A stretch of 64,000 nucleotides of DNA from a candidate division SR1 bacterium Aalborg_AAW-1 (lineage in GTDB: Bacteria > Patescibacteriota > Gracilibacteria > Absconditabacterales > Absconditicoccaceae). Location of the stretch: contig CP011268.1 of NCBI GenBank assembly GCA_001007975.1, positions 930,001 to 994,000 on the forward strand, read 5' to 3'. This document shows, piece after piece, positions 59,390 to 62,290 of this stretch. Numbering within the stretch: position 1 is the stretch's first letter; the number at the start of each line of letters is the position of its first letter. The notes under the pieces are model-generated. The model was given only the letters and a program-made list of their open reading frames with translations, was not told the origin of the DNA and made no database searches. A program made the position numbers and the translations under genes.

Positions 59390-59590
59390 ATGAGTAAAAC
59401 AAAAAAACTTTTGAAAAAAGTAAAAAAAATGTTCCAATCAAAAAAGCATTGGAAACAAAGAGATCTGCAAGTACTAGAAAGATTTGTAAAACGTCAAAAA
59501 AAGAAACCATTGACGATAAAACAATATTTTTTTGGTAAAACTGACGCTATGGAAACAAATATAGCGAGACAAAAACACCACAAGAAATAA
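59390..59590 (+). CDS. Very basic small protein (no TGA), starts an import-like block
   Basis: 66 residues, over one third Lys/Arg (MSKTKKLLKKVKKMFQSKKHWKQR, then QYFFGKTDAMETNIARQKHHKK). Could bind nucleic acid. The longer start at 59339 is less likely. First gene of the TGA-free block up to 62290, whose genes are spaced 5-30 bases apart with A-rich leaders. Confidence 0.5.
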   Translation: MSKTKKLLKKVKKMFQSKKHWKQRDLQVLERFVKRQKKKPLTIKQYFFGKTDAMETNIARQKHHKK

Positions 59591-59620: not shown

Positions 59621-60295
59621 ATGAAGAAAATCAAAACAGAAAAACAATTCATTTATAAAACAAATGAATTGGAACAAATACTCAAAAAAAATTATGGGTA
59701 CAATGTTTTCTTACAAGAAATAGAAGTAAAAAACAAAAAAGTTTATTTCTCCATTTTATTAGAAAACGAAACCATAAAAAAAATATCATATTCATTTTCA
59801 GAATTAGAACAATTAATGAAAATACACTATGGTAACAACAGTTATAATATAAGACAAATAACAGTAATAGATCGAACAAAATTACATATAGATACTATCA
59901 AAAATAGTACTTCAATATGGAAATCAGAACATTCTTTGATTATAAAACAATTAATTAATAAAATTCAAGTAATAATCAACGATAAAAGTCGTACTGAAAA
60001 TTTACGTTTTATGATTGGTAGAATGTCTGAATGGAATGAATATACATCTTACAGATCTAAATTAAATCTTGAGATTAAAAAAAATCTCAAATCACAAAGA
60101 GATAGTACAATTAAAAATCATAAACTACAAAAAGAGTATGAACAATTACAATTACTTATCTCACTCAATAAATTAGTAAAATCAAGTAAGAAAAATATTC
60201 AAAATATTACTTACTATAATAATTTAAAATCTGATGAAACACAAACATTAATCAAAAAAATTGAAAATATTATTAATAACAAACAACTAAAATAA
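59621..60295 (+). CDS. Coiled-coil protein, unknown function (no TGA)
   Basis: 224 residues, Lys/Asn/Ile-rich. Two related N-terminal segments (FIYKTNELEQILKKNYGYN and YSFSELEQLMKIHYGNN) suggest a small repeat, then a long coiled coil (about 125-200). Very low GC. No TGA. Five bases before folA. No family recognised. Confidence 0.5.
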   Translation: MKKIKTEKQFIYKTNELEQILKKNYGYNVFLQEIEVKNKKVYFSILLENETIKKISYSFSELEQLMKIHYGNNSYNIRQITVIDRTKLHIDTIKNSTSIWKSEHSLIIKQLINKIQVIINDKSRTENLRFMIGRMSEWNEYTSYRSKLNLEIKKNLKSQRDSTIKNHKLQKEYEQLQLLISLNKLVKSSKKNIQNITYYNNLKSDETQTLIKKIENIINNKQLK

Positions 60296-60300
60296 AAATT

Positions 60301-60855
60301 ATGAACAAAAAAATTGTAGTAATCGCTGCTGTTGCAGCAGGAGATAATCTTATGGGTGGAACTAAGAATGATAAACAAATCATTCCTTGGCATTGTTCAG
60401 AAGATTTCAAGCATTTTAAAGAAACAACGATGGGAAGTGCTATGATTATGGGTCGTAAGACTCTCGAATCATTACCTGGACTACTTCCGGGAAGACCCCA
60501 TATTTATCTTTCGAGAGATACTACTCCTAGAGAGAATGTATATCGAGCAGTTTCATTAGCAGAAGCCATAGGAATTGCTGAACAGCTTTCTGAGAGAGAT
60601 ACCATCTATATTATTGGTGGTGCTGAGATTATTAATCTAGCACTACAAGAAAATATAGTAGATGAAATTATCCTCACGAAAATTTATGCAGTGATAGAAG
60701 AAGTACAATATCCTGTATATTTTCCTCTTCATGAGGAACAGTTGAAAGAACAATGGGAAATTATAGAAACGAGTGATATTAGACCATCACAAAAATCCAA
60801 ACCGGATCTTTTAAAGTATGAAATTATTAAGTACAAGAAAAAACATCAAAAATAA
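60301..60855 (+). CDS. folA: Dihydrofolate reductase
   Basis: 184 residues. [35 protein letters not shown] (substrate and M20 loop; Trp present), [25 protein letters not shown] (NADPH site), and [13 protein letters not shown]. Regenerates tetrahydrofolate, needed after ThyA. All glycines are GGN. It precedes thyA by 5 bases, a common pairing. Confidence 0.92.
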
Positions 60856-60860
60856 AAAAA

Positions 60861-61655
60861 ATGAAAAATTACTTAGATTTACTTCAACACATTTTAGATA
60901 ATGGTGTTGATAAAACAGACAGAACTGGAACTGGAACAAGAAGCGTTTTTGGATACCAGTTGCGCTATGATTTATCGAAAGGATTTCCGTTGGTTACTAC
61001 CAAAAAAGTGCATTTAAAATCTATTATTTACGAGTTATTGTGGTTTTTGAAAGGGGAGACCAATATTGCTTATTTAAAGGAAAATGGAGTTTCTATTTGG
61101 GACGAGTGGGCAGATGAAAACGGTGATTTAGGTCCTGTTTACGGTGCACAGTGGAGAAGTTGGAAAGGAGCAGATGGAAAAGTTATTGATCAGATTACAG
61201 ATGTAATCAACCAGATCAAAACGAACCCTGATTCTCGAAGACTGATCGTTTCTGCATGGAACGTTTCCGAAATTCCGAATATGGCCCTTGCTCCTTGCCA
61301 TGCTCTATTTCAGTTTTATGTAGCGGACGGAAAATTATCACTGCAGCTTTATCAGAGAAGTGCAGATGTCTTTCTGGGCGTACCGTTCAATATTGCGAGT
61401 TATGCGCTTTTATTAATGATGGTTGCACAAGTTACAGGGCTTGAAGTTGGTGACTATGTTCATACTTTTGGTGATGTACATATTTACAACAATCATTTTG
61501 AGCAGGTCAATAAACAGCTTTCAAGAGAACCAAGATCTCTTCCTGTAATGAAACTTAATCATCAGGTAAAAGATATCTTTAAGTTTAAATTCGAAGATTT
61601 TACTTTAGAAGGTTATGATCCTCATCCGGGAATTAAAGCTCCGGTAGCGGTGTAA
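60861..61655 (+). CDS. thyA: Thymidylate synthase ThyA, Bacteroidetes-like, standard code
   Basis: A 264-residue enzyme making dTMP from dUMP; its length and motifs equal E. coli Thy[40 protein letters not shown], catalytic Cys in [42 protein letters not shown]. More than 20 glycines, none TGA. Codon 126 of the [10 protein letters not shown] motif (the dUMP phosphate-binding Arg) is CGA (61236-61238); under CGA = Trp the enzyme would lose it. The high similarity to Bacteroidetes ThyA is judged from memory, not by alignment. Confidence 0.96.
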
Positions 61656-61679: not shown

Positions 61680-61892
61680 ATGAAAAAAAACGAAGAAAGA
61701 ATCGAAGAGATCATAAACAATCTTTCTGAGGAACAAAAGAAAGAAATTTTGGATATGACAAAACCTCAAAAAGTTGGTGATAATCAAAATTATGACAAAA
61801 AATGTAATTTCATCATTCAATGCGGTTTCGCAATCTATGAATTTGATGAAGTAAAAAAAGCTCTCCAACAACAGAGAGATGAACCAAAATAA
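61680..61892 (+). CDS. Small charged hypothetical protein (no TGA)
   Basis: 70 residues: MKKNEERIEEIINNLSEEQK then CNFIIQCGFAIYEFDEVKKA. Two cysteines seven apart. Two bases upstream is a possible TTG start (61674). Linked to the thyA block. No family recognised. Confidence 0.45.
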   Translation: MKKNEERIEEIINNLSEEQKKEILDMTKPQKVGDNQNYDKKCNFIIQCGFAIYEFDEVKKALQQQRDEPK

Positions 61893-61909: not shown

Positions 61910-62290
61910 ATGAATAAAAATCTAGAAACATTAACGCGAATAATTAGAGAACATTTGCCCAAACTCATGCAACTTGAGGATGGATGTCAGGTTGAAGCAG
62001 ACGGTATTGATAAAGAAATTACTATTGGGAAAGAGGCTTATGAAGCTTCACCGGATGGTTATTTAATAGATTTACAAGCTCCAGCAGAGGCACGACATAA
62101 ATATCGTAAAATTACGAAAATTATTGGTAAAGAGCCACAACTGAATCATGTATTATCATGGTTTAAACAAACGATATCTCACAAAATATTCGATTATTGT
62201 GAGATAATAGAAAAATGGAACTTAGAGAGTATATATCTCAAGGACCAATCAGATGAGTTAATTAACTTTCTGATTAAAAAATCTCAATAA
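61910..62290 (+). CDS. Hypothetical protein (no TGA)
   Basis: 126 residues: LETLTRIIREHLPKLMQLEDGCQVEADG, ITIGKEAYEASPDGYLIDLQAP, VLSWFKQTISHKIFDYCEIIEKW. Mixed alpha/beta. Two CGA codons (LT-CGA-II, EA-CGA-HK) read naturally as Arg. Ends the TGA-free block before a terminator. Resembles phage-type small proteins in style, but none is recognised. Confidence 0.45.
   Translation: MNKNLETLTRIIREHLPKLMQLEDGCQVEADGIDKEITIGKEAYEASPDGYLIDLQAPAEARHKYRKITKIIGKEPQLNHVLSWFKQTISHKIFDYCEIIEKWNLESIYLKDQSDELINFLIKKSQ

Follow-up and report, generated by a model that had tools for sequence, protein, structure and literature searches.

In the Absconditabacteria, CGA and CGG were inferred to have passed from arginine to tryptophan (Shulgina and Eddy, 2021; PMC8629427), and the genome described here shares with that system the same codons, the same new amino acid and the same signature of the tRNAs with UCG and CCG anticodons (G73, no A20), together with TGA as glycine. 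The sections of that paper on which we draw infer the code and do not treat imported genes that break it. Two further reports come close to the present locus. In groundwater Patescibacteria a putative thymidylate synthase gene, thyA, was likewise received by transfer (PMC12455944), in a paper whose main text does not contain the term 'genetic code'. Code-11-compatible phages of code-25 hosts (PMC10746230) likewise place TGA-less genes in a cell that reads TGA as Gly; there, however, the genes belong to phage genomes and not to a chromosome, and the main text contains no mention of 'CGA'. Unassigned codons and transfer are a subject of PMC6207430. Both the reading of CGA/CGG as Trp in Absconditabacteria (PMC8629427) and putative thyA transfer into Patescibacteria (PMC12455944) are already in print, and a limited search of the literature returned no report of such a genome in which a transferred gene has a reassigned codon at a residue essential to its product.

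We analysed a window of 64,000 nucleotides (positions 930001-994000) of a genome, G000, assembled as a single contig of 1,044,756 bases (G+C 33.3%, 98% complete), together with its family, which comprises 49 genomes, G000 included. Judged by its code, the genome is probably akin to Absconditabacteria or Gracilibacteria. The features discussed below are listed in Table 1. For the thyA gene in the window, the best reading, which we consider probable, is a redundant import, naive to the local code, in which an essential arginine is probably misread.

Table 1. The thyA block in the window and the native thyA elsewhere in the genome (window positions unless stated otherwise)
Feature	Position	Strand	Description	Basis
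Small ORF	59390..59590	+	66 aa, TGA-free, no Pfam match over cut-off; possibly same block	
ORF	59621..60295	+	224 aa, TGA-free, few Gly, no Pfam match over cut-off; possibly same block	
Second folA	60301..60855	+	Dihydrofolate reductase, just upstream of thyA; 0 TGA, 1 CGA	Pfam
Imported thyA	60861..61655	+	Thymidylate synthase, 264 aa, TAA stop, 0 TGA, standard-code spelling	ORF, Pfam, tree
Codon 126 of imported thyA	61236..61238	+	CGA at the phosphate-binding Arg126 position	Sequence and alignment
Small ORF	61680..61892	+	70 aa, TGA-free, no Pfam match over cut-off; possibly same block	
ORF	61910..62290	+	126 aa, TGA-free, 2 CGA, no Pfam match over cut-off; possibly same block	
Native thyA	genome 1019688-1020554	+	About 29 kb downstream of the import, outside the window	Genome search

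Spelling, origin and surroundings of the imported thyA

The product of the imported gene is a full-length E. coli-type ThyA with the expected motifs. Translated with CGA as Arg, it matched the Pfam family Thymidylat_synt (PF00303) over residues 2-264 (E 2e-129, 430.7 bits, cut-off 24.3), and solved thymidylate synthases align with it along the full length. The original prediction had placed a CGA at codon 126 and counted no TGA among more than 20 glycines; the sequence bears out the codon and the lack of TGA, but the glycines number 19, every one spelled GGN. At the genome rate, where 33% of Gly codons are TGA, zero TGA among 19 has a probability of about 5e-4, assuming independent sites. Codon 126, followed by AGA at codon 127 inside an 11-residue motif, is the only CGA/CGG codon of the gene. 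The phosphate-binding positions 21, 126, 127 and 166 are spelled AGA, CGA, AGA and AGA, so that the set of arginines is complete in the standard code and lacks 126 if CGA is Trp; in the local code the protein would differ from E. coli-type ThyA by a tryptophan at an otherwise conserved phosphate-binding arginine.

The closest genome contigs to the imported ThyA were those of Chryseobacterium and relatives (up to 90%), and the best match among 246 Weeksellaceae genomes reached 92% amino-acid identity. A phylogeny of ThyA had been proposed as a check, and in a tree of 154 rows built by a quick method the import fell, with a tip length of 0.052, in a clade of 15 rows (SH-aLRT 97) whose other 14 rows belong to the Chryseobacterium family (Weeksellaceae), inside or beside its named members; one unlabelled row, L011, was assigned to Weeksellaceae by a match search among the 246 genomes. 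By sequence, the donor group can be named to the family, Weeksellaceae (Chryseobacterium and kin). No near-identical donor was found among the sequences compared, the nearest having 81% DNA identity, and the import therefore cannot be dated. Codon 126 in the 39 Weeksellaceae sequences that matched best was AGA in 30, CGC in three, CGA in three, CGT in two and AGG in one. CGA being a minority spelling at this position, inheritance from the donor and a later origin are both possible, and the donor may already have had CGA there. Outside Gly, Arg and Trp, the codon usage of the import does not stand out from that of native G000 genes, among which it falls at the 78th percentile for GC3 and at the 14th for codon likelihood, so composition neither supports nor excludes recency. 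The gene is intact, with no clear sign of decay. Compared with the 39 Weeksellaceae sequences it has seven unique amino-acid changes and seven unique synonymous codons, in line with the more divergent rows L009, L010 and L012, and these counts do not support relaxed selection. Taken together, the comparisons support an import from a standard-code donor, unadapted to the local code.

Viral sources were considered and rejected. The best match to thyA on a viral contig was 77%, and the tree places the import with Weeksellaceae. Recoded viral carriers were also set aside: in 16 of 18 viral loci, going from code 11 to code 25 changed the coding density by no more than 0.04, where the values for a native locus of the family were 0.24 and 0.91. 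Two thyA-bearing viral contigs, L240 and L206, gained 0.12 and 0.08 in coding density with TGA as Gly and are possibly recoded.

The gene lies among TGA-free ORFs that possibly form one block (Table 1), with TGA-using genes on both sides. For the folA of this block, the closest relatives reached at most 47% both in 12 genomes with a close thyA and in a listing of 296 Bacteroidota, so it may have come from a source other than the thyA donor; a plasmid or phage origin was rejected, with all matches below 60%. No plasmid match was obtained for the two longer flanking ORFs (59621-60295 and 61910-62290), no pair of direct repeats convincingly brackets the block, and a Pfam search of nine proteins in and around it revealed neither an integrase nor a transposase family. 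Promoter-like sites in the block were fewer than in shuffled sequences, and terminator-like sites equalled the shuffled mean.

The local code and the native thyA

ORFs of at least 150 aa in G000 contain 1393 CGA, 80 CGG and 2290 TGG codons; CGG is rare, and CGA and CGG were evaluated jointly. ARAGORN reported one tRNA with the anticodon UCG and one with CCG, and no further tRNA with either. By the identity criteria of PMC8629427 (G73 and A20), at positions anchored on the T arm, both carry G73 and lack A20, as does tRNA-Trp(CCA), whereas the tRNA-Arg species with GCG, UCU and CCU anticodons carry A73 and A20. Profile scores rose when CGA/CGG was translated as Trp instead of Arg, in three of five intended proteins, picked among CGA-rich ones: from 836.5 to 871.7 bits for LeuRS and from 785.0 to 804.0 bits for IleRS (best NCBIfam score of each), and for CysRS from 359.9 to 374.4 bits with TIGR00435 and from 385.2 to 410.3 bits with its top match, NF011108. 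The IleRS (C1:732274-736011) has, by eye, an insert resembling a GNAT acetyltransferase at residues of about 230-370; the NCBIfam model ileS_w_GNAT scored far under its cut-off and on a different stretch. Three adjoining ORFs with similar starts at C1:811892-818598 are unusually rich in CGA and CGG.

The same signature of the UCG tRNA recurs in the family genomes examined for it. A pattern search combined with ARAGORN, which could miss an unusual tRNA, found one UCG tRNA in each of 14 family genomes, and eight further pattern-matched loci in these genomes held no UCG tRNA according to ARAGORN. All 14 carry G73 and none has A20, position 20 being less sure in G008 owing to an unusual D-loop. 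In 88 orthologue pairs between the family genomes G014 and G033, the residues opposite CGA/CGG were most often CGA/CGG again (196), then Trp (70) and Phe (13), and Arg was outside the ten commonest. With CGA also found at conserved Trp positions in G000 (in the native thyA, by the synthetase profile scores and in the family columns described below), CGA is very probably read as Trp in this genome, and the original suggestion that it seems to be Trp is well supported by tRNA identity bases, profile scores and conserved columns alike.

A search for a second thyA or a thyX had been called for by the original prediction, and it returned a thyA downstream of the import and no ThyX: PF02511 had no match in nine of nine genomes, G000 included (the control was positive in 6 of 14). 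This second copy is, by its sequence, a native thyA in local spelling. It contains four TGA codons and has CGA at alignment columns 80, 83 and 133, where Trp was found in 47/47, 46/46 and 44/47 of the readable ThyA rows; its codons at 126 and 127 are CGT and AGG. Upstream of it stands a folA with two TGA codons, separated from it by one ORF. With a correctly spelled native thyA at hand, the cell has no need to rely on the import. Of the original reading, the standard-code import, its lack of adaptation and the predicted loss of function are supported; what changes is that this copy may be dispensable.

The imported thyA is not the only gene of G000 without TGA, and the idea that it is the sole code-naive gene was rejected: TGA was absent from 46 of 774 ORFs with at least eight Gly codons. 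Taken together, the 38 genes that reach 150 aa and lack TGA do not show foreign codon usage, so some may be native. The ProRS gene (C1:745007-746536) has 26 Gly codons and no TGA, and two of its four CGA codons fall where the solved chain 1h4q has Trp; the two marks of spelling, lack of TGA and use of CGA, need not go together. Together with the set that is not foreign, it indicates that absence of TGA alone is no proof of import. In the 400 kb of G014 that were read, 15 of 269 genes with at least ten Gly codons lacked TGA (2/10 and 4/15 for the next genes after a gap), and in about 295 kb of G033 the count was 7 of 196, with two more genes at 5-6%. The code-naive genes of G014 amount to a few per cent and are foreign in codon usage as a set. 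The only TGA-free gene common to the read parts of both genomes is thyA, a comparison of partial genomes that is biased towards thyA, its loci having been fetched deliberately.

Several other TGA-free ORFs of G000 (C1:524685-525305, 575984-576745, 604300-605124, 611529-613136 and 670883-672007) look by eye like Bacteroidota lipoproteins or secreted proteins, and over 67542-67795 the DNA matches stretches of ten Weeksellaceae genomes at 66-74% identity. The Bacteroidota-like genes and the thyA donor hint at a Weeksellaceae host or neighbour.

TGA-free thyA genes across the family

Among the 49 family genomes, 28 had a ThyA match, and seven (G000, G014, G033, G035, G037, G042 and G045) carry an E. 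coli-type ThyA without TGA. We compared the placement of CGA/CGG in 36 family ThyA rows, with column majorities taken from 12 standard-code references; the over-extended ORFs from G104 and G052 were left out, as were seven rows belonging to other families. In the 19 TGA-bearing rows these codons fell on 43 Trp columns, no Arg columns and 31 others, and in the 17 TGA-free rows on one Trp column, 14 Arg columns and 12 others. The contrast between 43:0 and 1:14 at Trp and Arg columns gives a Fisher P of 1.5e-12, with the classes set by TGA presence after the data were seen and related rows treated as independent.

The 14 Arg-column cases are spread over eight genomes (G000 1, G042 2, G014 1, G033 1, G045 2, G037 3, G040 3, G032 1), and half of them hit Arg 21, 126, 127 or 166, namely 126 in G000 and G042, 127 and 166 in G037, and 21, 127 and 166 in G040. 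The TGA-free thyA of G035 has no CGA/CGG, and those of G014, G033 and G045 have it at less conserved arginines (35, 225). By sequence, four of eight TGA-free copies (those of the seven genomes and of G040) would be crippled if CGA/CGG is Trp. A native-type ThyA is also present in three of the four genomes with a predicted crippled copy (G000, G037 and G040), a small sample that we give as description; none was found in G042, whose genome is 91% complete. The remaining nine of the 17 TGA-free rows (e.g., G003, G009 and G039) show no such Arg spelling except in G032, and, apart from that one, may be of another history.

Three long ThyA-like proteins, L168 (G014b), L170 (G033b) and L183 (G026), have lost phosphate-binding arginines, with Glu or Lys at 21, Lys at 126 and Ser at 127, and are perhaps no longer dTMP synthases. 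The E. coli-type ThyA of G020 (L175) has seven TGA codons and CGA/CGG at Trp 83 and 98 and lies beside a TGA-bearing folA; judging from this spelling, it looks like an import since respelled.

In two places the TGA-free gene occupies a locus common to several genomes. G014 and G033 carry it at the same locus, where G029 has a native-type thyA; against dinucleotide shuffles, the flanks of the two are similar both upstream (z 11.0) and downstream (z 7.3), values reached by 0 of 200 shuffles, and their similarity to G029 is not clear. The two genes differ by 0.64 at synonymous positions, compared with a median of 0.60 in the 88 other orthologues. All 16 shared Gly sites lack TGA in both, although TGA makes up 70% of Gly codons in G014 (P 8e-13 at genome rates, and about 7e-5 by a two-state estimate if the ancestor lacked TGA); the six common Trp sites are all TGG, which is uninformative (P about 0.07).

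The second place is in genus g13. In G037, G045 and G040, a second thyA, free of TGA, lies between the native one and a gene that we take, from its sequence, to be acetate-kinase-like. The native ThyA proteins of G037 and G040 are 92% identical and their second copies just 40%; across the three genomes the second copies (L173, L174 and L184) are 40-69% identical and stand beside a conserved native thyA. Upstream of the second locus, the DNA of G040 resembles that of both G037 (z 6.4) and G045 (z 9.0), and G037 and G045 are not clearly alike (z 1.9 to 2.1); downstream, G037 resembles G045 (z 6.9) but not G040 (z 1.1). These scores come from dinucleotide shuffles, and at this locus earlier also from single-base shuffles. 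The pattern suggests a standing site at which the coding sequence has been exchanged. Of the 15 Gly sites that the second copies of G037 and G045 share, 13 have different codons, and none has changed to TGA.

Consequence of the predicted misreading and alternative explanations

Arg126 of the E. coli enzyme corresponds to Arg178 in L. casei and Arg175 in human thymidylate synthase (table in PMC6005164). The human variants R175C and R175A were reported to be without activity (PMC6479699), and a conservative change at Arg126 of E. coli reportedly impaired catalysis (PMC6005164). By analogy, an imported ThyA with Trp126 is most likely inactive or nearly so. That such an enzyme retains enough activity to be useful we regard as very unlikely: the adjoining position, Arg127, is reported to be permissive (PMC6005164), yet the changes described at position 126 itself were damaging.

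On the favoured reading, the cell acquired a second thyA from a Weeksellaceae-like bacterium, probably recently, and the gene is still in standard-code spelling. The single tRNA found with the UCG anticodon has Trp-type identity bases and should insert Trp at codon 126; the dUMP-phosphate pocket of four arginines would then lose Arg126, which the partner subunit contributes, and the imported enzyme would be inactive or nearly so. The downstream native thyA, spelled in the local code, would supply dTMP. With the import disabled by misreading and the native copy supplying dTMP, the import would be a redundant, code-blocked passenger, whose expected fate is loss or respelling. The sequence of the gene, its foreign placement, the native copy, the tRNA identity bases and the family pattern are observed; Trp insertion at codon 126 in vivo, inactivity, recency and fate we infer from them.

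Other explanations were weighed against this one. If CGA were decoded ambiguously, as Arg in some molecules and Trp in others, part of the imported ThyA would have Arg126 and work, in keeping with the intact ORF, with the several family genomes whose TGA-free ThyA has CGA/CGG at an invariant Arg, and with G042, which at 91% completeness has CGA at 126, CGG at 222 and no other detected ThyA or ThyX. The tRNA complement argues the other way, with one UCG tRNA in each of 14 family genomes, always with G73 and never with A20, and no additional UCG or CCG tRNA in G000 by ARAGORN, as does the absence of Arg from the ten commonest residues opposite CGA/CGG in the orthologue pairs; we consider ambiguous decoding unlikely. 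A chimeric assembly from another genome had been named at the outset as an observation that would count against the prediction. It is extremely unlikely given the single, 98% complete contig, the TGA-using genes on either side of the block and the comparable copies that other family genomes hold between TGA-using genes.

The TGA-free thyA genes at shared loci in two other genera are a poor fit with simple short-lived passengers, and a standard-code thyA could instead be kept readable over long times because it serves a different cell, or a mobile element able to cross codes. Consistent with this are the common locus and similar flanks of G014 and G033, their 16 shared Gly sites without TGA in a genome where TGA predominates among Gly codons, and the Gly codons of G037 and G045, which change without ever becoming TGA; some phages predicted for such hosts are compatible with code 11 (PMC10746230). 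Against it, the copies G014a, G033a and G042a and that of G037 are foreign in codon usage to their own genomes, as fresh imports would be (those of G035a, G045 and G040 are not, in a comparison with just 3 to 16 native genes per genome outside G014, G033 and G000), and G000 itself gives no sign of it. As an explanation of the import in G000 it is, in our estimate, highly improbable. The broader statement, that some recoded bacteria keep a standard-code thyA long-term, readable for another cell or element and not for their own carrier, appears quite unlikely; if true, one chromosome would hold two dialects. For G000 we retain the redundant, code-naive import as the probable explanation.

A change of genetic code should stand in the way of foreign genes. 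In G000, an imported enzyme gene, intact in sequence, carries the reassigned codon at a position whose alteration inactivates the human homologue, and a native copy in the local code stands on the same chromosome; other members of this one recoded family show the contrast again. The family offers a natural experiment, open to test, on the extent to which recoding keeps out horizontally transferred genes and on the imports that persist.
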